NCBI GenBank assembly: GCA_003131585.1
Contig: PKVW01000010.1
Location: 84,996 to 132,581 of the forward strand
Direction of reading: 5' to 3'
DNA from: Acidobacteriaceae bacterium
GTDB taxonomy: Bacteria > Acidobacteriota > Terriglobia > Terriglobales > Acidobacteriaceae
Length of the DNA: 47,586 nucleotides
The translations under genes and the position numbers were made by a program. The notes beneath the pieces are model-generated. The model saw only the letters and a program-made list of their open reading frames with translations, made no database searches and was not told the DNA's origin. Shown piece by piece: positions 4,169-30,886 of this stretch. The stretch's first letter is position 1. Each line of letters opens with the position of its first letter.

Positions 4169-6134
4169 CGCTATAAGGGAGCTCAATCGCCCCAGCCGCT
4201 ACGGGAACGGCATTGCGGTTGTGATCGAGCACCATTCGAACTTTGCTTGCCAGTTGGTTCAAGGTGAATGGCTTCTGGAGGAAATTATTTTCGACATTGA
4301 CGACTCTATGGTCCAGTATCGTTTGGCCGGCGTAGCCGGAGACGAACAGCATTCTGGTCTCCGGACGAGCCGTTTCCAATTCCTTCGCCAGTTCGCCCCC
4401 ACTCATGTGAGGCATTACGACATCGGTGATGAGCAGATGGATCGTCGATCCATGAACTTTGGCAACGGACAGAGCGTCCAACCCGTCTTTCGCCTGCAGC
4501 ACATCGTATCCACGAAGGCCAAGAAACTCGGCGGCCGCTCGGCGTAGCGCTTCCTCATCCTCGACCAGCAGAACGGTCTCTGTGCCGCGCAGTACGCTCT
4601 CGGCACCCTGATCTGGAATCTCTGAAATGTTGGGCTGACCCTGTACACAGGGCAGGTAGATCTTGAAGATGGTGCCCATTCCGGGTTCGCTATAAGCCCA
4701 GACGAATCCATGATTCTGTTTGACGATGCCGTACACCGTGGCCAAGCCAAGGCCGGTACCCTTGCCGGAGGGTTTCGTAGTGTAGAAGGGTTCGAAAACG
4801 TGCGGCAGATGATCCGCATGAATACCGGTGCCCGTGTCGGTCACGGTTAGAACCGAATAGCGTCCTGGTGGGATGAGGGCCCGCTTGCGGTCGATGTATT
4901 GCTCGTCGAGCTGTACATTGGAGGTTTCAACCGTGCACCGTCCCCCCTGGGGCATGGCATCGCGAGAGTTGGCCGCGAGGTTCATGAGAATTTGCTCGAT
5001 CTGCACGGGATCCAAACGAACTCTGCCCAGGCCCTCGCCGGGGACAAAGATGAGATCGATGTCTTCTCCGATCAGGCGATGGAGGGTCTTGACGATGCCA
5101 CCCACCACCGGGTTGAGCTCCACGACGCGCAAGGCTTGCGGTTGTTTGCGGCTGAAAGCGAGCAACTGCCGGGTCAGATCGGCGGCGCGATGAGCGGCAG
5201 AAAGGATCTCCTGAATCCGCGCCTGGGTGGAGCTTCCGGCGGCCACGGAGTCGAGCGCGAGTTCGGAGTAGCTGGTGATAATGGTGAGCAGGTTGTTGAA
5301 GTCGTGGGCAACGCCTCCAGCCAGTCGGCCGATGGCGTCCATTTTTTGTGACTGGAGCAACTGGGCTTCGAGACGAAGGCGTGCAGTGAGATCGCGGCCG
5401 TTGGAGACAAAGTGCGTGATCCTTCCTTCGGCGTCCCTTATGGGGCTGATACTCTCATCGACGTAGTACACCTCGCCATTTTTCTTGCGGTTTACCACGA
5501 CGCCGCGGCAAACGTCGCCCGCGCGAATGGTTTCCCACAATTCGCTGTAAAGTACGGGCGCTTGCAGATCTGACTTCAAAATGCTCTGGGCCTTGCCCGC
5601 GACTTCCTGCCGGGAATAGCCGGTCAGCGCTTCAAAAGCGGGGTTCACATATTCGATGATGCCCTGGCTATTGGCGATAAAAATAGTGTCGGCCGACTGC
5701 TCGACCGCGCAGGAAAGCTTGCGCAAGGATTGCTCCGCCATTTGCCGCTGCAGCTGCGTCGAGTGCAGACTGAGCGCGCAACGGATCGTGCGCACCAGGT
5801 TGGCTCCGTTGAGCTGCGATCTCTCCATGCAGTCCCAGGCACCGGCCTGGATGATTTCAGCGACCGCTTTCTCATCGGCGCGCTCGGTCAGCAAGATGAA
5901 GGGCATGGCGCCCCTGCTGTGCAGAAACTCGGAGAGAAGCTTGGTAGCGGCAGCATCCCCGGTCTCATGTTCAAACAAGACCAGCCCATAGTTCCCACGC
6001 TGCAACATCGCCTTAGCCTCTTCCAGCGAGCCCGCATGGTCGAGCTCTGCCGGCAAAGCGCTCCGATTGCGGTCGAGGATTTCCCGGATGAGAAAAAAAT
6101 CCTCCTCCAGGCTTCCCACCAGCAGGACGCGCAA
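4149..6134 (-). CDS. PAS-domain hybrid histidine kinase with C-terminal receiver
   Basis: A 661-residue soluble hybrid sensor kinase. Domains in order: a degenerate receiver at about 1-115, where the usual phospho-accepting Asp position (GLVLFEHE) carries Glu; PAS at about 138-255 (EYVNPAFEALTGYS); a HisKA phosphoacceptor with His277 in GGVAHDFNNLL; HATPase_c with N box (NLAANSRDAM, 385-394), G1 DTGTGI (433-438) and G2 KGTGLGLA; and a complete C-terminal receiver starting VLLVEDEEAL with Asp571 in LLITDVVMPHMSGG. No membrane segments are present, so it senses a cytoplasmic signal. The start codon is TTG, chosen because the receiver fold begins at once (MRVLLVG); no Shine-Dalgarno is visible. 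No cognate output regulator is adjacent. Confidence 0.92.
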   Translation of the reverse strand: MRVLLVGSLEEDFFLIREILDRNRSALPAELDHAGSLEEAKAMLQRGNYGLVLFEHETGDAAATKLLSEFLHSRGAMPFILLTERADEKAVAEIIQAGAWDCMERSQLNGANLVRTIRCALSLHSTQLQRQMAEQSLRKLSCAVEQSADTIFIANSQGIIEYVNPAFEALTGYSRQEVAGKAQSILKSDLQAPVLYSELWETIRAGDVCRGVVVNRKKNGEVYYVDESISPIRDAEGRITHFVSNGRDLTARLRLEAQLLQSQKMDAIGRLAGGVAHDFNNLLTIITSYSELALDSVAAGSSTQARIQEILSAAHRAADLTRQLLAFSRKQPQALRVVELNPVVGGIVKTLHRLIGEDIDLIFVPGEGLGRVRLDPVQIEQILMNLAANSRDAMPQGGRCTVETSNVQLDEQYIDRKRALIPPGRYSVLTVTDTGTGIHADHLPHVFEPFYTTKPSGKGTGLGLATVYGIVKQNHGFVWAYSEPGMGTIFKIYLPCVQGQPNISEIPDQGAESVLRGTETVLLVEDEEALRRAAAEFLGLRGYDVLQAKDGLDALSVAKVHGSTIHLLITDVVMPHMSGGELAKELETARPETRMLFVSGYAGQTILDHRVVNVENNFLQKPFTLNQLASKVRMVLDHNRNAVPVAAGAIELPYSARAGSG

Positions 6135-6640
6135 AAGGGAGGGCCCGGGTTGGGTCGCGGTTGACAGGGGGAATCCTTCGGCTACTCTTTGTCTATCGGA
6201 AAGCTCCAGTCGCGGCGTCGTCTGGGGAGGAGACCGGCAATCATTGAGTCGAGAAGAAGTCCCAGATTGGGGATGGGTTCAGTCTGGAACTGGACTGGCC
6301 CACTTTCCAGCCGGAAAGTGTTGGTCAGTACCATGCTGCACATCCTGTTTGTGTTTACCGGTCATTAGTCTTCAGTCTTCAGTGATGCTTCGTCCTGCCA
6401 GAAAATCTGCTATCCGTCTCTCTCAAGGTTCCATACTCCATCCTGAGCCGAGAACCTGGCCCGGAGTTCTCATTCGGCGGTTAACCAACTCTAACTTCCA
6501 TCGTCTAATACCCAAAGTCTGGACGTACCTATAAGGATGCTTCTCGTCCGGGCTGAAAATGAGGGAACCCCGGCCCAGTTTCCTGCGTATCGATTAAAGA
6601 GCCAGAGTGAGCCGAACAGCGAGGGTGATTTGGGGGATTT
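6135..6640. other. 506-base intergenic region with a possible promoter and stem-loop
   Basis: I find no convincing gene here; open frames crossing it have no recognisable protein. It holds a plausible plus-strand promoter (TTGACA at 6161-6166, 16-base spacer, TACTCT at 6183-6188), a perfect 8-bp stem-loop at 6301-6320 (CACTTTCC, loop AGCC, GGAAAGTG) and a short direct repeat CTTCAGT near 6370. It could be a long leader for the gene at 6641 or hold a small RNA; neither can be shown from sequence alone. Confidence 0.4.
6161..6188 (+). promoter_or_regulatory. possible sigma70-type promoter
   Basis: TTGACA (6161-6166) and TACTCT (6183-6188) are separated by 16 bases. The -35 is perfect and the -10 matches four of six. 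Transcription would run rightward, about 450 bases before the next start codon. Confidence 0.35.
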
Positions 6641-24330: not shown

Positions 24331-25752
24331 TTATCCGCGCTTGGGGCGGAACACGTGCGTGCTGGTGCCAAAGAAAACTTCCGCGGATTCCATGAAGGTC
24401 TCCGAAAGCGTGGGATGGGGATGGATGGTCATCGCGATATCGCTGGCCAGCGCGGCCATTTCGATGGCCAGCACTCCCTCTGCGATCAGCTCGCCTGCGC
24501 CTATGCCAACAATCCCCACGCCCAGCACGCGTTCGCTCTGCGGATCAAAGATCAGCTTGGTCATCCCCTCAGGACGGTCCAGCGTAATGGCGCGTCCGGA
24601 TGCGGCCCAGGGGAATTTCGCGACTTTGATCTCGCGGTTTTCTTTTTCCGCCTGAGTTTCGGTCAGACCACACCAGGCAACTTCCGGATCGGTAAACACG
24701 ACTGCCGGAATCGCATTGGGTTCGAAAGCGACCTTGTGCCCAGCGATAGCTTCGACAGCTATACGTCCTTCGTGGGAAGCTTTGTGCGCCAGCATGGGCT
24801 CGCCAACCACGTCGCCGATGGCATAGATGGACGGATCGGCGGTCTGCAATTGCTTGTTCACCTCGATGAACCCCCGCGGGCCGACATGAACTTGCGTGGT
24901 CTCGAGTCCGGGGATCTCCGAGTTCGGCTTGCGTCCCACCGACACCAGCACTCGGTCAAACGTTTTCTCCTTCTCTTGTACCGCCCCGCCTTCGAAGGTT
25001 GCGCGAATTCCCGCGCCATCTTCTTTGAGGGAAGCGACGGTAGTGTTGAGCAGGATTGCTTCAAACATTTTCTCCAGGCGTTTGTGCAGCGGAAGAACCA
25101 GATCGCGATCCGCGCCGGGAAGCAGGCCGGGCAGCATCTCCACAACGGTAACGCGCGTTCCCAGCGCCGCATATACCGAACCGAGCTCCAGACCGATGTA
25201 TCCGCCGCCAACCACAAGCAGGCTGCCGGGGATGTCTTCGAGAGCGAGGGCTCCGGAGGAATCCATCATGCGCGGCGAAGCCAGCTTGAGCGCTGGAATG
25301 ATGGCGGGCCGCGAGCCCGTCGCGAGGATGATCCGATCGAAGGTGAGAACCGCTTCGGTGGAGTCCGCTTTTGTGATTCGCAGCGTTGTGGAATTTGTGA
25401 ATGCCGCGCGGCCCTGGATGTATTCCACATGACGCTGCTTGGAGAGTTGTCCCAGGCCGCCGGTGAGCTTCTTGACGACACTTTCTTTCCACGTGCGCAA
25501 CCGAGCCAGGTCGATCTTTGGCGGAGGAAATTCGATCCCCCAATTTTTGGCCTGCTGGGATTCTGCAATCAGCTTGGCAACGTGCAGAAGTGCTTTTGAA
25601 GGAATGCAGCCACGATAGAGGCATACGCCGCCGGGATTCGCTTCGGGATCGATGAGCGTAACTTGCATGCCGAGATCAGCGGCGAGGAAAGCGGCAGCGT
25701 AACCACCGGGCCCGGCGCCGATCACGGCGATGTTTAGGGATGCCTCTGGCAT
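24331..25752 (-). CDS. lpdA: dihydrolipoyl dehydrogenase (E3)
   Basis: 473 residues, the FAD-dependent E3 of the pyruvate dehydrogenase complex, which reoxidises dihydrolipoamide on E2 and passes electrons to NAD+. The FAD-binding GAGPGG is at 12-17, the redox-active disulfide is Cys44/Cys49 in [13 protein letters not shown], a second nucleotide-binding motif is [13 protein letters not shown] contact is in [20 protein letters not shown], and the C-terminal catalytic His-Glu pair is in HPHPTLSE. Length matches the family. It is 15 bases downstream of the inserted GIY-YIG gene, in an operon with E1 and E2. Confidence 0.97.
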
Positions 25753-25767
25753 TTTGGTGTCTAATCT

Positions 25768-26628
25768 CTAAAATTGGTCTTCTACAGTCTCATTCGCCAG
25801 CTGTTCGATATTCACGTCAAAGCAGCGCTGGACAAAGTTAATCGTAGGTCGTTGGTTCACTAGACTGGCCTGCGTCGTTCCCCATTTCGCAAAAAGACCA
25901 GCGTTCTTCTTCCAGTATCTCGTATCGCGTCCAACCGTCTTAATCCATTTAACAGCAATCATGTACTCGCAACGATCATCGTCGTCCAAATTGTCTGCAA
26001 CCGCAGTTCGAAGTCCCATGTCGATTAGCAATTTCCCGCGTGCTTGCTCATCTTGCGCAAATCGCGGAACTCGGAACTCCCTAGCTGGAGCCGCTTCTGA
26101 CATGACGCGGCCAACTCCGACATAACCAATTCCGTTCAAGCGTGCGATTACAATATCCCCAGGACGTAACCTTCTTATCGCGTTTCGGAAAGCCTTGCGT
26201 TGACCGGCTCCTAAATAACTGAACGCGACGTTGTCTTCCCAGCACCGGTGCTTACCGTCACCCACGTTGAAGTAGTGCACTTGGTTTGGATAGTCGAAGT
26301 CTGGGAGCTTCCGATGAAGGGTATTGAGCGGCCGGAAGTTTCTGCTAAAGCTCCCTGTAGCCGCATTTGCCAGCCCACGCGAATGCCAAATCAGCGTTTT
26401 CTCGACCAACAGCGCTTGGTCTTCAGTGAGACGCTTGGCAACTACACGTATTATTGGCTCTAGTCCCTCCCTGCGGATTTCACTAATCTTCGCCGTTTTC
26501 TCCCCTTCCGCCGTATCTAAAAGGTGGGAAAACTGCCTAGAGCCTTGGCCTTTTCCGTAGTAGAAAGGCTCAAAGTTGCGTGGATCGATGTAGACGTAAA
26601 CATAGAATCTTTCCTCCCGTTCGGCCAT
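25768..26628 (-). CDS. GIY-YIG nuclease-like protein with a PUA/EVE-like C-terminal domain
   Basis: 286 residues. The N-terminus has a LEM-3-like GIY-YIG pattern: YVYVYIDP (9-16) and FYYGKGQGSRQFSHL (22-36), a downstream Arg (R51/R52) and Glu76 in LVEKTLIWHSRGLANAATG, the positions where this family keeps its metal ligand and Asn. Residues about 117-185 (FNVGDGKHRCWEDN, FSYLGAGQ, RRLRPGDIVIARLNGIGYVG, VGRV) resemble a small beta-barrel of the PUA/EVE kind that is found next to nuclease domains. It sits between aceF and lpdA with 21- and 15-base gaps, and in three sampled 60-base lines its GC was about 45-52%, against 65-68% in neighbouring genes, a sign of transfer. A defence-type modified-DNA nuclease is a hypothesis. 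Confidence 0.75.
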   Translation of the reverse strand: MAEREERFYVYVYIDPRNFEPFYYGKGQGSRQFSHLLDTAEGEKTAKISEIRREGLEPIIRVVAKRLTEDQALLVEKTLIWHSRGLANAATGSFSRNFRPLNTLHRKLPDFDYPNQVHYFNVGDGKHRCWEDNVAFSYLGAGQRKAFRNAIRRLRPGDIVIARLNGIGYVGVGRVMSEAAPAREFRVPRFAQDEQARGKLLIDMGLRTAVADNLDDDDRCEYMIAVKWIKTVGRDTRYWKKNAGLFAKWGTTQASLVNQRPTINFVQRCFDVNIEQLANETVEDQF

Positions 26629-26649
26629 CGCAACCTCCTCAGACTCGGA

Positions 26650-28170
26650 TCATCCTTGAACGGAAAGCAGGAAGGGCTGCTCGAAGGCCTCCGCCACCCA
26701 GCGCAGAAAACGCGCGGCGTCGGCGCCGTCAATCAGGCGATGATCGTAGGAGAGCGAGAGCGGCAGAATCAGCCGCGGCTCGAACTTTCCGCCGATCCAT
26801 TCCGGCTCGATGCGCGAACGCGAGAGCCCGAGAATGGCGACCTCGGGATGATTCACAATCGGTGTAAATGCCGTGCCTCCAATACCGCCGAGGTTGGTGA
26901 TGGTGAAGGAGCCGCCTTCCATGTCAGCGAGGGTTATTTTCTTGTCGCGCGCTTTTTGCGAGAGTTGCGACAACTCCACCGCCAGCTCTACGATATTTTT
27001 CTTGTCCACGTCGCGGATCACCGGAACCAGCAGGCCGCGATCCGTATCGGCCGCGACCCCGATATGGATGTATTGCTTGTAAACGATCTCTGTTTTCTCC
27101 ATATCGATGCTGGCGTTGAATTGCGGGAACACCTTCAGCGCCGCCGCGCAGACCTTGAGCGCAATCGCGGTCACGGTCATCTTGCCGCCGGCTTGTTCGG
27201 CCTTGGGAGCAAAACGGGCGCGCAATTGCTCGAGTTCGGTGATGTCGGCGCGGTCGTGCTGGGTGACGTGAGGAATCGTGTTCCAGGATTCGGCGAGATG
27301 TTCCGCCGTCTTGCGGCGAACCCCGCGCATGGAAACGCGTTCGATTTTTCCCCACTTGGCGAAGTCCGGCAGCTTGGGCTCGACAAAATGTCCGGCCCTC
27401 GGAGGGGTCTGCGCGGCGGAAACGACGGCGGTGAGCAAGGCCTTGGCATGGGCTTTGACATCGTCTTCACGGATGCGGCCGCCGGGGCCCGCCCCCTTGA
27501 CTTCGTAAATGTCGACACCGAGTTCGCGAGCCAGACGGCGCGTGTGCGGAGCCGCGGGAACCGCTTCGCGGTGCTCGGTTCCGGCAACCTTGCCCAATTG
27601 CGCAGGCATGGAGAACGCCGCGGGCCGCGGCCGCGGCTGGTCGGGAGGCAGCGCCTGTTCCTCGGTCTTGCCCTCCGCGCGAATCGCCGCCTGGAAAGCA
27701 AGGCGCGGTTCCTGCAGGCGGAATTCGCCGGCGGCGGCGGCGCGCGCCGGCGGCGCTGCGGATTGCGAGAGCGGTTGCGATGGCGGTTGCACCAGCGAAG
27801 ACGGTTGCAGTTTTGCGGCGGCCGCCGCTTGTTCGCCCGATGGACGTTTCGCGGGCGGCGCAGCCGCTCTTTTCGGTGACGGCTCAACCTGGTGCGGAGG
27901 TTGGGCGACAGCAGCAGCGGAGGCGCCATTGCTATCCGCGGTAAAAACCACCTGGCCGACCTTGATCTTGTCGCCTTCTTTGACCAGAATTTCCTTGATC
28001 GTTCCGCTCACCGAAGAAGGCACTTCTATGACAGCCTTGTCGGTTTCGAGTTCCATTACTGTCTGGCCTTCGCTGACCGTGGCGCCGGGCGCGATCATCA
28101 GGCGCACCAAATCGCCCTGTTCTATGTTTTCACCGAGCACGGGAAGTTTGAATTCGATCACCGATTCCAT
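26650..28170 (-). CDS. aceF: dihydrolipoamide acetyltransferase (E2) of pyruvate dehydrogenase
   Basis: 506 residues. One lipoyl domain at about 4-78, with the lipoylated Lys45 in ELETDKAVIEV; a long Ala/Pro/Gln linker; an E3/E1-binding domain at about 213-248 (TRRLARELGVDIYEVKGAGP, GGRIREDDV); and a catalytic acyltransferase core with the DHRLIDG active-site motif near 478-484. It transfers the acetyl group from lipoamide to CoA. The single lipoyl domain with a flexible linker is common outside the gammaproteobacteria. It follows aceE by 37 bases. Confidence 0.96.
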   Translation of the reverse strand: MESVIEFKLPVLGENIEQGDLVRLMIAPGATVSEGQTVMELETDKAVIEVPSSVSGTIKEILVKEGDKIKVGQVVFTADSNGASAAAVAQPPHQVEPSPKRAAAPPAKRPSGEQAAAAAKLQPSSLVQPPSQPLSQSAAPPARAAAAGEFRLQEPRLAFQAAIRAEGKTEEQALPPDQPRPRPAAFSMPAQLGKVAGTEHREAVPAAPHTRRLARELGVDIYEVKGAGPGGRIREDDVKAHAKALLTAVVSAAQTPPRAGHFVEPKLPDFAKWGKIERVSMRGVRRKTAEHLAESWNTIPHVTQHDRADITELEQLRARFAPKAEQAGGKMTVTAIALKVCAAALKVFPQFNASIDMEKTEIVYKQYIHIGVAADTDRGLLVPVIRDVDKKNIVELAVELSQLSQKARDKKITLADMEGGSFTITNLGGIGGTAFTPIVNHPEVAILGLSRSRIEPEWIGGKFEPRLILPLSLSYDHRLIDGADAARFLRWVAEAFEQPFLLSVQG

Positions 28171-28207: not shown

Positions 28208-30886
28208 CTAACTCGTGGCCGGATTCAGTTTTTCTGCATCGATCCCCAGGTCAATGATCGCCTGCTTCACGAGATCAAGGGCAATTTTCTTTTCCCGCGC
28301 CAACGCCACCAGCGTGGCCAGCACAATGTGCTTCGCGTCCACTTCGAAGAAGTCGCGCAACGCTGCCCGGCTCTCACTGCGGCCAAATCCGTCGGTTCCA
28401 AGCGAGACCAGTTGTCCCGGTACCCATTTCGCCAGAGTTTCCGGCAGCACCTTCATGTAATCCGACGCGGCAATGAACGGCCCCGGCGCATCCTTCAGAG
28501 TCTGAGTTACGAAGGGGACTTTCGGATCTTCGGACGGGTGCAGCATGTTCCAGCGCTCACAGTCGTTGGCGTTGCGATAAAGTTCCTTATAGCTGGTGAC
28601 GCTCCACACATCCGCGGCAACGCCGTATTTCTCCTGGAGGATCGTCTGCGCTTTCAACACTTCATACATGATGGTTCCGCTGCCCAGCAGTTGCGCGCGC
28701 AACGTTGCATTCTGCGCGTCCGATGCTTTGAAGCGATAGAGTCCGCGCAATATCCCTTCGCGGACATGGTCGCCTTTCGGCATCTCCGGCATGGGAAGCG
28801 GCTCGTTGGTCACGGTGAGGTAGTAGAAAATCGATTCCTGGTCCACGTACATCCGCTTGATGCCATCTTGAATGATGATGGCTATCTCATAAGCGAATGC
28901 CGGATCGTAGGCCAGCAAGTTGGGTACCGGTAACGCCAGAACGTGACTATTGCCGTCCTGATGCTGCAGACCTTCGCCGGCCAGTGTGGTTCGTCCCGCG
29001 GTTCCGCCGACGAGGAATCCGCGGCAGCGCATGTCCGCCGCCGCCCAGATCAGATCTCCGATGCGCTGGAACCCGAACATCGAGTAATAAATAAAGAAAG
29101 GAATCGTGTTGATGCCGTGATTGGCATAAGCTGTGCCCGCTGCGATGAACGAGCACATTGACCCGGCTTCGGTAATCCCTTCCTCGAGAATCTGCCCGTC
29201 CTTCGCTTCTTTGTAGTAAAGGAGGGTGGCCATATCGACGGGCTCATACAGTTGCCCTACGCTTGAATAGATCCCGACCTGACGGAACAAGGCCTCCATA
29301 CCGAACGTGCGGGCTTCGTCGGGGATGATGGGTACAATCAGCTTGCCCAATTCCGGGTCGCGCAGCAGTTTCGCCAGCAGCCGCACGAAAACCATGGTGG
29401 TGGAGGCTTCGCGCCCCTCCGTACCTTTGTAGAACTCTTCGAAGTACGATTCGGGAAACGGCTTCAGAGGCGTGGCGCGCACTTTGCGCTGCGGCATGTA
29501 TCCGCCGAGCTGTTGCCGCCGCGCTTGCATGTACTTGATCTCGGCGCTGTCGTCGGAGGGCCGGTAGAACGGAGCGTTGTGCAGTTCGTCGTCCGGAATC
29601 GGAATTCCGAAACGCGAACGGAACATCTCCAACTCCTCTTCATTCAGTTTCTTTTGCTGGTGCGTAATGTTCTTGCCTTCGCCCGCTTCGCCCAAGCCGT
29701 AGCCCTTGATGGTCTTGGCCAGGATGATGGTCGGCGAGCCTTTGTGATCCACCGCGGCCCGGTATGCGGCATGCACCTTGATCGGATCGTGCCCTCCCAG
29801 CCGCATGCGCGCCAGTTGCTCGTCGGAAAGGTGCTCTACCATCTTTAGAAGACGCGGGTCCGTGCCGAACAGGTTCTGGCGGAAGTAAGCGCCGCTCTCC
29901 ACAAAATACTTCTGGTACTGCCCGTCGCTGATTTCTCCCAGACGCCTCACCAGCAGGCCGTCGCGGTCGCTGCGAATCAGGCTGTCCCAGTCCGAGCCCC
30001 AGATGACCTTGATGACATTCCATCCCGCTCCGCGGAAGATGGCCTCGAGTTCCTGAATGATCTTTCCGTTGCCGCGCACAGGTCCGTCGAGGCGCTGCAA
30101 GTTGCAGTTCACCACGAAAATCAAGTTATCCAGATTCTCCCGCGAAGCCAGAGTGATTGATCCGAGAGACTCCGGTTCGTCCATTTCGCCGTCGCCGAGG
30201 AAGGCCCACACCTTGCCGCCGGTCGATTGTTTCAGCCCGCGGTTTTCCAGATACCGGATAAAGCGAGCGTGATAGATCGCCTGAATCGGTCCCAGTCCCA
30301 TCGAAACCGTGGGAAACTCCCAGAAATTCGGCATCAGCCACGGGTGGGGATAGGAACTCAGCCCACCGCCCGGCTTCAGTTCACGGCGGAAGTTTTCGAG
30401 CTTCTCTTTCGGAATGCGGCCCTCAAGATACGCGCGGGCATAAATTCCGGGTGCGGCGTGGCCCTGAAAGTAGACGAAGTCGCGGTCGCCGCTCTCCGTT
30501 TGCGCCTGAAAAAAATGGTTGAAGGCGACTTCGTACAAGGTGGCCGCTGAAGCGAAAGTGGAGATGTGCCCGCCAATCCCTTCCTGAATCTTGTTGGCAC
30601 GCACCACCATCGCCAGCGCGTTCCAGCGGACCAGGCTCTTGATGCGGCGTTCCATCTCCTGACTTCCAGGGAAGGGGGGCTGTTGCGGATATGCAATCGT
30701 GTTCTGGTAAGGAGTGGTCGCCGAAAAGGGAAGATTCACTCCCGCGGTGCGCCGCGCATGGAGCGCCAATTGCTGCAGCAGTCGCCCCGCGCGAACTGGA
30801 CCTCCCTGAGACAGCACATAGTCCAGTGAGTCCACCCACTCCCGGGTTTCCAATACTTCTTGACCGTCAGTTTCCGTCTGAGCCAC
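28208..30886 (-). CDS. aceE: pyruvate dehydrogenase E1 component (homodimeric)
   Basis: 892 residues, full length for the homodimeric AceE type. It decarboxylates pyruvate with thiamine diphosphate and acetylates the lipoyl group of E2. The ThDP-binding motif is GDGEMDEPESLGSITLASRE ending in NCN, and the RAGRLLQQLALHARRTAGVN and YFQGHAAPGIYARAYLEGRI blocks are characteristic. The start is GTG at 30886 with GGAG upstream. First gene of the run aceE-aceF-GIY-YIG-lpdA-mscS. No PdhR-like regulator is adjacent; the divergent neighbour is a peroxiredoxin. Confidence 0.97.
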   Translation of the reverse strand: MAQTETDGQEVLETREWVDSLDYVLSQGGPVRAGRLLQQLALHARRTAGVNLPFSATTPYQNTIAYPQQPPFPGSQEMERRIKSLVRWNALAMVVRANKIQEGIGGHISTFASAATLYEVAFNHFFQAQTESGDRDFVYFQGHAAPGIYARAYLEGRIPKEKLENFRRELKPGGGLSSYPHPWLMPNFWEFPTVSMGLGPIQAIYHARFIRYLENRGLKQSTGGKVWAFLGDGEMDEPESLGSITLASRENLDNLIFVVNCNLQRLDGPVRGNGKIIQELEAIFRGAGWNVIKVIWGSDWDSLIRSDRDGLLVRRLGEISDGQYQKYFVESGAYFRQNLFGTDPRLLKMVEHLSDEQLARMRLGGHDPIKVHAAYRAAVDHKGSPTIILAKTIKGYGLGEAGEGKNITHQQKKLNEEELEMFRSRFGIPIPDDELHNAPFYRPSDDSAEIKYMQARRQQLGGYMPQRKVRATPLKPFPESYFEEFYKGTEGREASTTMVFVRLLAKLLRDPELGKLIVPIIPDEARTFGMEALFRQVGIYSSVGQLYEPVDMATLLYYKEAKDGQILEEGITEAGSMCSFIAAGTAYANHGINTIPFFIYYSMFGFQRIGDLIWAAADMRCRGFLVGGTAGRTTLAGEGLQHQDGNSHVLALPVPNLLAYDPAFAYEIAIIIQDGIKRMYVDQESIFYYLTVTNEPLPMPEMPKGDHVREGILRGLYRFKASDAQNATLRAQLLGSGTIMYEVLKAQTILQEKYGVAADVWSVTSYKELYRNANDCERWNMLHPSEDPKVPFVTQTLKDAPGPFIAASDYMKVLPETLAKWVPGQLVSLGTDGFGRSESRAALRDFFEVDAKHIVLATLVALAREKKIALDLVKQAIIDLGIDAEKLNPATS

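Follow-up and report, generated by a model that had tools for sequence, protein, structure and literature searches.

A gene inside a pyruvate dehydrogenase operon of an Acidobacteriaceae bacterium probably encodes a type IV restriction endonuclease that reads modified DNA through an EVE-like, base-flipping domain, and whose most likely role would be to destroy modified phage DNA. The gene lies within a stretch of 47,586 nucleotides, which was analysed as a whole and is called the window here. It joins a GIY-YIG nuclease domain to an EVE/YTH-like domain, retains its catalytic residues, is distributed sporadically, and is missing from the corresponding site in related genomes. The analysis supports the modification-dependent restriction that an earlier note had proposed from the letters alone, with DNA cleavage, base flipping and a defence role as the predicted activities. 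The features of the locus are as follows.

25768..26628, minus strand: predicted modification-dependent nuclease gene, 286 aa (open reading frame, Pfam LEM-3_GIY-YIG, AlphaFold model with pLDDT 90.4)
26335..26607, minus strand: GIY-YIG nuclease domain, residues about 8–98 (Pfam, PADLOC PD-T4-3, PDB 9u75, conservation)
25813..26286, minus strand: EVE/YTH-like (PUA superfamily) reader domain, residues about 115–272 (VIA-align, hhalign, PADLOC PDC-S11)
26629..26649, minus strand: 21-base gap between aceF and the nuclease gene (sequence)
25753..25767, minus strand: 15-base gap between the nuclease gene and lpdA (sequence; consensus scan)
28208..30886, minus strand: aceE, pyruvate dehydrogenase E1 (Pfam PDH_E1_M, E 4e-98)
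26650..28170, minus strand: aceF, pyruvate dehydrogenase E2, upstream neighbour (Pfam 2-oxoacid_dh, E 7e-84; Biotin_lipoyl; E3_binding)
24331..25752, minus strand: lpdA, dihydrolipoamide dehydrogenase, downstream neighbour (Pfam Pyr_redox_2, E 5e-62; Pyr_redox_dim)

Read on the minus strand, the order is aceE, aceF, nuclease and lpdA, all co-directional, with the flanking genes identified by Pfam and the tight spacing described in the earlier note confirmed. The nuclease frame is open over its full length, with an ATG start and 286 codons, and the gene is present as a single copy in its genome. A purine-rich GAGGAGG within the 21-base gap, ahead of the ATG, is a possible ribosome-binding site. 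A consensus scan of the minus strand found no promoter-like and no terminator-like site in either flanking gap, and it is therefore likely that the nuclease is co-transcribed with the pyruvate dehydrogenase operon. The GC content is indeed lower than that of the flanks (0.506 vs 0.624 for aceF and 0.595 for lpdA) and is the lowest among 36 mechanically picked, non-overlapping window ORFs of at least 150 aa each (mean 0.591, SD 0.027), about 3 SD under the mean. Another AT-rich ORF of the window, at 6067–6534 on the plus strand, has a GC content of 0.536, and its third-position GC of 0.51 is the lowest of the 36. An Rfam search of the whole window at the gathering threshold gave no match. The immediate neighbours of the nuclease gene, aceF and lpdA, are housekeeping rather than defence genes, which counts against the restriction reading, and no methyltransferase adjoins it.

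The tight co-directional placement, in gaps free of minus-strand promoter-like or terminator-like sites, is what might be expected of an accessory of the pyruvate dehydrogenase operon. Comparison of the aceF-lpdA junction in relatives contradicts such a housekeeping role, which we regard as very improbable. A tblastn search with the nuclease found no copy downstream of aceF in any of 56 loci from other genomes (29 of the genus and 27 others of the family, a subset of the genomes searched; about 1.5 kb downstream per locus, where the contig allowed), so it is no conserved partner there. The gene occurs in only one of 45 genus genomes, its own, while two others match the N-terminal part only, and relatives of the nuclease adjoin other genes. 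Neither is it an ordinary partner across the phylum, where 16 of 396 genomes match: three with a full-length copy (its own included), four with the nuclease half and nine with the reader half.

In 55 of the 56 loci lpdA follows aceF, and in the remaining one (L067) only a distant lpdA paralogue was found. The gap between the two genes in these 55 relatives ranges from 0 (overlaps counted as 0) to 556 bases, with a median of 89. Of the 29 gaps of 60–260 bases, 13 can form strong hairpins, with z below −3 relative to 50 base shuffles, and these differ in sequence, so that the junction seems to collect palindromic elements (examples of the gap are L019, L045, L037, L060 and L068). It also holds stray reading frames, namely a SnoaL-like ORF in L040 (2560–2922; Pfam E 2e-13), ORFs in L031 and L032 that appear similar to it by eye, and a 174-codon ORF in L053 (2579–3100) with no significant Pfam match.

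A scan of public genome contigs with the single protein returned no relatives. A profile scan of public genomes returned 82, of which 80 were kept; these are 37–49% identical to the window protein. The alignment used below (A2) has 71 rows: 68 relatives, the window protein, L074 and L075. Left out of it were duplicates (L138, L159, L114, L115), broken frames (L109, L156, L158, L163), sequences with odd ends (L135, L137, L151) and one with an unknown residue (L105).

The N-terminal half bears out the nuclease assignment of the earlier note, with a match to Pfam LEM-3_GIY-YIG (PF22945; E 2.3e-7) that scores 31.3 bits where the cut-off is 27. The PADLOC model PD-T4-3 matches residues 7–98 (E 5e-13), over profile positions 15–114 of 256 only. 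A single-sequence search of the PDB found two solved relatives and no others, 9u75 (E 1.8e-8, residues 8–102) and 9u7u (E 1e-7), and the closest solved relative of this half is CMoRE/PD-T4-3, a modified-cytosine restriction enzyme. CMoRE is presented as a proven 5hmC/5ghmC-dependent nuclease, with 9u75 and 9u7u as its structures (PMC12923530), and PD-T4-3 is reported to restrict Tevenvirinae phages in K-12 as well as in the E. coli strain from which it comes (PMC12409345).

The nuclease motif of the window protein reads Y9-V-Y11, F22-Y-Y-G-K-G27, R31, E76 and N88. Residues Y11, Y23, G25, R31, E76 and N88 are invariant in all 71 rows, window included, and Y9 is kept in 70, the remaining row having a gap. 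In the window protein (Y9-V-Y11, F22-Y23-Y24-G25-K-G) the third tyrosine of the GIYxY-YIG motif is present, as in CMoRE/PD-T4-3. A 15-residue acidic autoinhibitory loop is described for most, not all, CMoREs (PMC12923530). The stretch that corresponds to this lid is eight residues shorter than in 9u75; at its place, residues 36–47, 70 of the 71 rows are 12 long, with 3.1 acidic residues of 12 on average. The inhibitory acidic insert of CMoRE would appear to be mostly missing here, a point against the restriction reading. The Foldseek comparison of the whole model with 9u75 gave a 251-column alignment with an rmsd of 18.9, and we therefore counted the GIY-YIG part alone. A weak PDB match of the A2 profile to a monopolin subunit (E 0.03) was taken as chance.

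The AlphaFold model of the whole protein, built from 71 sequences with a mean pLDDT of 90.4, together with the profile searches, recovered both a GIY-YIG and an EVE/YTH-like fold. Modelled alone from 72 sequences, eight of them PDC-S11-type, the C-terminal domain reached a pLDDT of 94.7. Foldseek with this domain placed the EVE-HNH protein VcaM4I first, followed by PH1033, MJECL36, a Leishmania protein and YTH domains; the PH1033, MJECL36 and Leishmania matches we take to be EVE proteins. VIA-align gave a Z of 11.5 for PH1033 (rmsd 2.9 over 122 residues) and 10.8 for VcaM4I with the domain alone; with residues 115–271/284 of the whole model, the values were 11.2 for PH1033 and 10.7 for VcaM4I (129 residues). 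YTH domains scored 9.1–9.8, and the EVE prototype 2eve scored 9.3 with the whole model. Since 2eve stands at 9.3 and YTH domains reach 9.8, this comparison does not cleanly separate EVE from YTH, and the predicted C-terminal fold is EVE/YTH-like.

The same ranking bears on the nature of the nucleic acid. The YTH domains, mostly readers of m6A in RNA, come directly after the best EVE matches, the lead of VcaM4I over them is a tie by VIA-align's own rule, and 2eve is level with them. The reader might thus bind modified RNA, as YTH or EVE-like domains, with the GIY-YIG domain acting in an RNA-triggered or RNA-cutting defence. We consider this unlikely, as PH1033 and the DNA-reading VcaM4I top the fold list. 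To our knowledge, GIY-YIG enzymes cut DNA. Furthermore, CMoRE, the nearest solved nuclease, is reported to degrade modified DNA (PMC12923530).

Profile evidence for the EVE-like assignment is middling. A profile of the domain aligned to ten EVE proteins by hhalign with an E of 6.1e-5 and a probability of 65%; the ten were taken from 13 proteins that were selected by an EVE motif out of 24 loci. The window protein has no match to Pfam EVE, and only three of the 71 members match it, with an E of 0.03 at best. The PUA/EVE-like module proposed in the earlier note is therefore upheld by predicted structure and this profile-profile match. Residues W130, D132, D158, G168, G171 and W228 of the domain are invariant in all 71 rows.

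PADLOC also links the C-terminal domain to PDC-S11, a phage-defence candidate whose homologous domain matches window residues 117–272 (E 2e-31) and is matched by all 71 aligned members. The two differ in their nuclease halves, GIY-YIG in the window protein and NucS-like in PDC-S11; three PDC-S11-like relatives match NucS_C in this half, one over the cut-off and two under it. In L007, L012 and L015 the same kind of reader domain as in the window protein is joined to NucS-like nucleases. Plasmids of Providencia, Klebsiella, Proteus and others likewise carry matches to the reader half, mostly annotated as hypothetical or DUF91 proteins.

The C-terminal 5hmC sensor of CMoRE appears to be of another kind. 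Against five CMoRE-like C-termini, hhalign gave a probability of 0.3% for the window domain, that is, no profile similarity, and of 0.2% for the EVE proteins, so EVE and the CMoRE sensor are not linked by this comparison. Among the best 50 matches listed in the C-terminal fold searches 9u75 is absent, although this does not establish that the folds differ. The window protein nevertheless resembles CMoRE in being the product of a single gene with an N-terminal LEM-3-type GIY-YIG domain carrying the extra tyrosine (Y-x-Y ... FYxGKG) and a C-terminal sensor; it departs from CMoRE in that sensor and in the shortened acidic insert.

Other known enzymes share parts of this design. VcaM4I is described as an EVE-HNH enzyme that flips 5mC/5hmC, with the pocket P24/W82/Y130 (PDB 6yex; PMC7897488). 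It likewise unites an EVE-fold reader and a nuclease in one protein (Z 10.7 over 129 residues), whereas its nuclease is HNH rather than GIY-YIG and its reader is N-terminal. In the wH-GIY-YIG enzymes Ahi29725I and Apa233I, a GIY-YIG nuclease is again fused to a methylation reader, which in contrast is a winged helix for 6mA (PMC11037411). Closest in design are the numerous GIY-YIG-EVE fusions reported as putative type IV restriction enzymes (PMC7641849), with the same pair of domain kinds and the same predicted role. Because of that report, the kind is already known as a prediction, and the window protein is a further member of it. In most members of the window family, the Pfam EVE profile does not recognise the EVE-like domain. 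Word searches of open-licence literature found no experiment on a GIY-YIG + EVE/PUA fusion, which does not prove that there is none.

Taken as a restriction enzyme, the protein would work as follows. The EVE-like C-terminal domain would bind DNA with a modified base, which would probably be flipped into a pocket, and would bring the CMoRE/PD-T4-3-related GIY-YIG domain to the DNA, which would then be cut. In this way the enzyme would destroy the genomes of infecting phages, or modified DNA from other foreign sources. The gene has no partner methyltransferase next to it. The gene itself would have been acquired horizontally and, having landed between aceF and lpdA, would be transcribed with the operon.

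Regarding the base that is read, C5-methyltransferase matches were found in 19 of 36 host genomes, the window's own genome and those of 35 of the 80 loci, in a search for C5-methyltransferases only. The window's own genome is among the 19, with three matches (one a short fragment), all on other contigs. A trigger of any 5mC would endanger hosts with C5-methyltransferases, about half of those searched, and for this reason plain 5mC is a less likely trigger than 5hmC, glucosyl-5hmC or some other modification of phages. Recognition in a narrow sequence context would likewise be more probable than the reading of any 5mC.

Family members are scattered across bacteria. According to record titles, many of them of metagenome bins, the 63 labelled rows of the alignment fall under 18 phylum labels. 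No fewer than 23 changes of phylum label are required on the tree, where 17 would be the minimum and shuffling gives 38.6 on average. The labels still cluster; these changes would fit transfer between phyla without proving it. Copies from Idiomarina, Marinobacter and Oceanimonas (L113, L119, L122) are 96–97% identical, which argues for recent transfer between genera. The gene is lower in GC than its locus in 66 of the 80 relatives. A search of the phylum with the CMoRE-like L079 matched nine of 396 genomes, the window nuclease included. We conclude that the window gene is probably a stray, horizontally acquired copy that landed between aceF and lpdA.

This copy stands apart from its family. 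It forms a long branch (1.33) without close kin, 39–49% identical to the 70 other rows, and has Arg163 where 69 of the 71 rows have a tyrosine; based on these sequence features it could have changed its specificity or lost its function. Four of the 80 relatives (L109, L156, L158, L163) have early-stop frames and are likely pseudogenes or assembly errors. Together these observations would also suit a family of restriction enzymes whose window copy is decaying or inactive in its own host. The frame of that copy is open over its full length, however, and its nuclease motif residues are kept, which makes decay improbable in our judgement.

We are evenly balanced on a broader reading, in which the family is distinct from CMoRE: a second, unrelated sensor, divergent and EVE-like and also arming the NucS-type PDC-S11 proteins, would sit on a CMoRE-type nuclease, would have spread horizontally over some 18 phyla, would read a phage modification other than plain 5mC, and in some hosts would ride housekeeping operons, borrowing their transcription. 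If the interpretation is right, one small gene encodes a complete restriction enzyme whose reader has been exchanged. Widespread across phyla, such an enzyme could reveal the modified bases of phages of soil and aquatic bacteria and serve as a tool for detecting such bases. The reader, common to two unrelated nuclease folds, clearly illustrates how type IV restriction enzymes exchange modules, and the placement shows that a likely defence gene can occupy a central-metabolism operon, beyond the reach of defence-island searches.

Tight embedding such as that in the window is unusual in the family, since only 4 of 64 loci, three of them from one lineage, have both neighbours within 30 bases. The 64 include the near-duplicates L113–L115; the other 16 of the 80 loci lack a neighbour on one side or a matching ORF pick. 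The upstream gene shares the strand of the family member at 53 of the 64 loci, compared with 504 of 719 control genes (Fisher p 0.03), and the downstream gene does so at 37 of 64, compared with 510 of 719 (Fisher p 0.03). A preference of the family for operons was rejected.

In three Chloroflexota loci (L101, L118, L145) a xanthine dehydrogenase-type operon carries the member between its genes for the FAD subunit and the large subunit, which the member either overlaps or adjoins across no more than 27 bases; the operon was recognised by Pfam in L118 (6978–11641) and by clustering in L101 and L145. A further tight embedding, L112, has phosphoesterase and ADP-ribosylglycohydrolase neighbours. 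The L141 member shares a single base with the end of a GMP synthase gene, and the L089 member shares one with an MrcB_N-HNH gene.

Surroundings of the family members give a weak hint of defence. Neighbours one or two places away, of which 148 were sampled, gave matches to 260 different defence models, compared with 141 for a sample of 148 from five or six places away. These samples were drawn from 235 near and 191 far ORFs of 100–700 aa, some of them spurious, without the duplicates L114, L115, L138 and L159, and one protein may match many models. An integron cassette was considered and rejected, as a scan with an attC consensus found attC-like pairs beside the 80 loci nowhere downstream and once upstream (L090). 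Whole loci held 0–3 such pairs each, except L100 with six, compared with 0–4 after one shuffle each.

A selfish GIY-YIG endonuclease of the homing type, inserted between aceF and lpdA, would also leave the site empty in relatives. The best viral structure matches are indeed phage GIY-YIG proteins, some named homing or intron-associated endonucleases, and a 'putative homing nuclease' is among the phage tblastn matches. We nevertheless find this origin quite improbable. The 11 phage tblastn matches span 26–56% of the protein, on its N-terminal side, five viral-contig matches reach residues 7–131 at most, and the C-terminal half has the fold of a modified-base reader. Members adjoin genes as unrelated as xanthine dehydrogenase subunits, GMP synthase and MrcB_N-HNH, and no common insertion target, as a homing endonuclease would show, is apparent across hosts; the few recurrent neighbour clusters, those in at least three loci, mostly reflect one lineage or common gene families. 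Some viral models (A0A384UIW0, A0A8S5NVT7, M1HB86 and M1HMA7) align over 170–346 columns, beyond the GIY-YIG half, and judging from these models the proteins may hold EVE/YTH-like domains.
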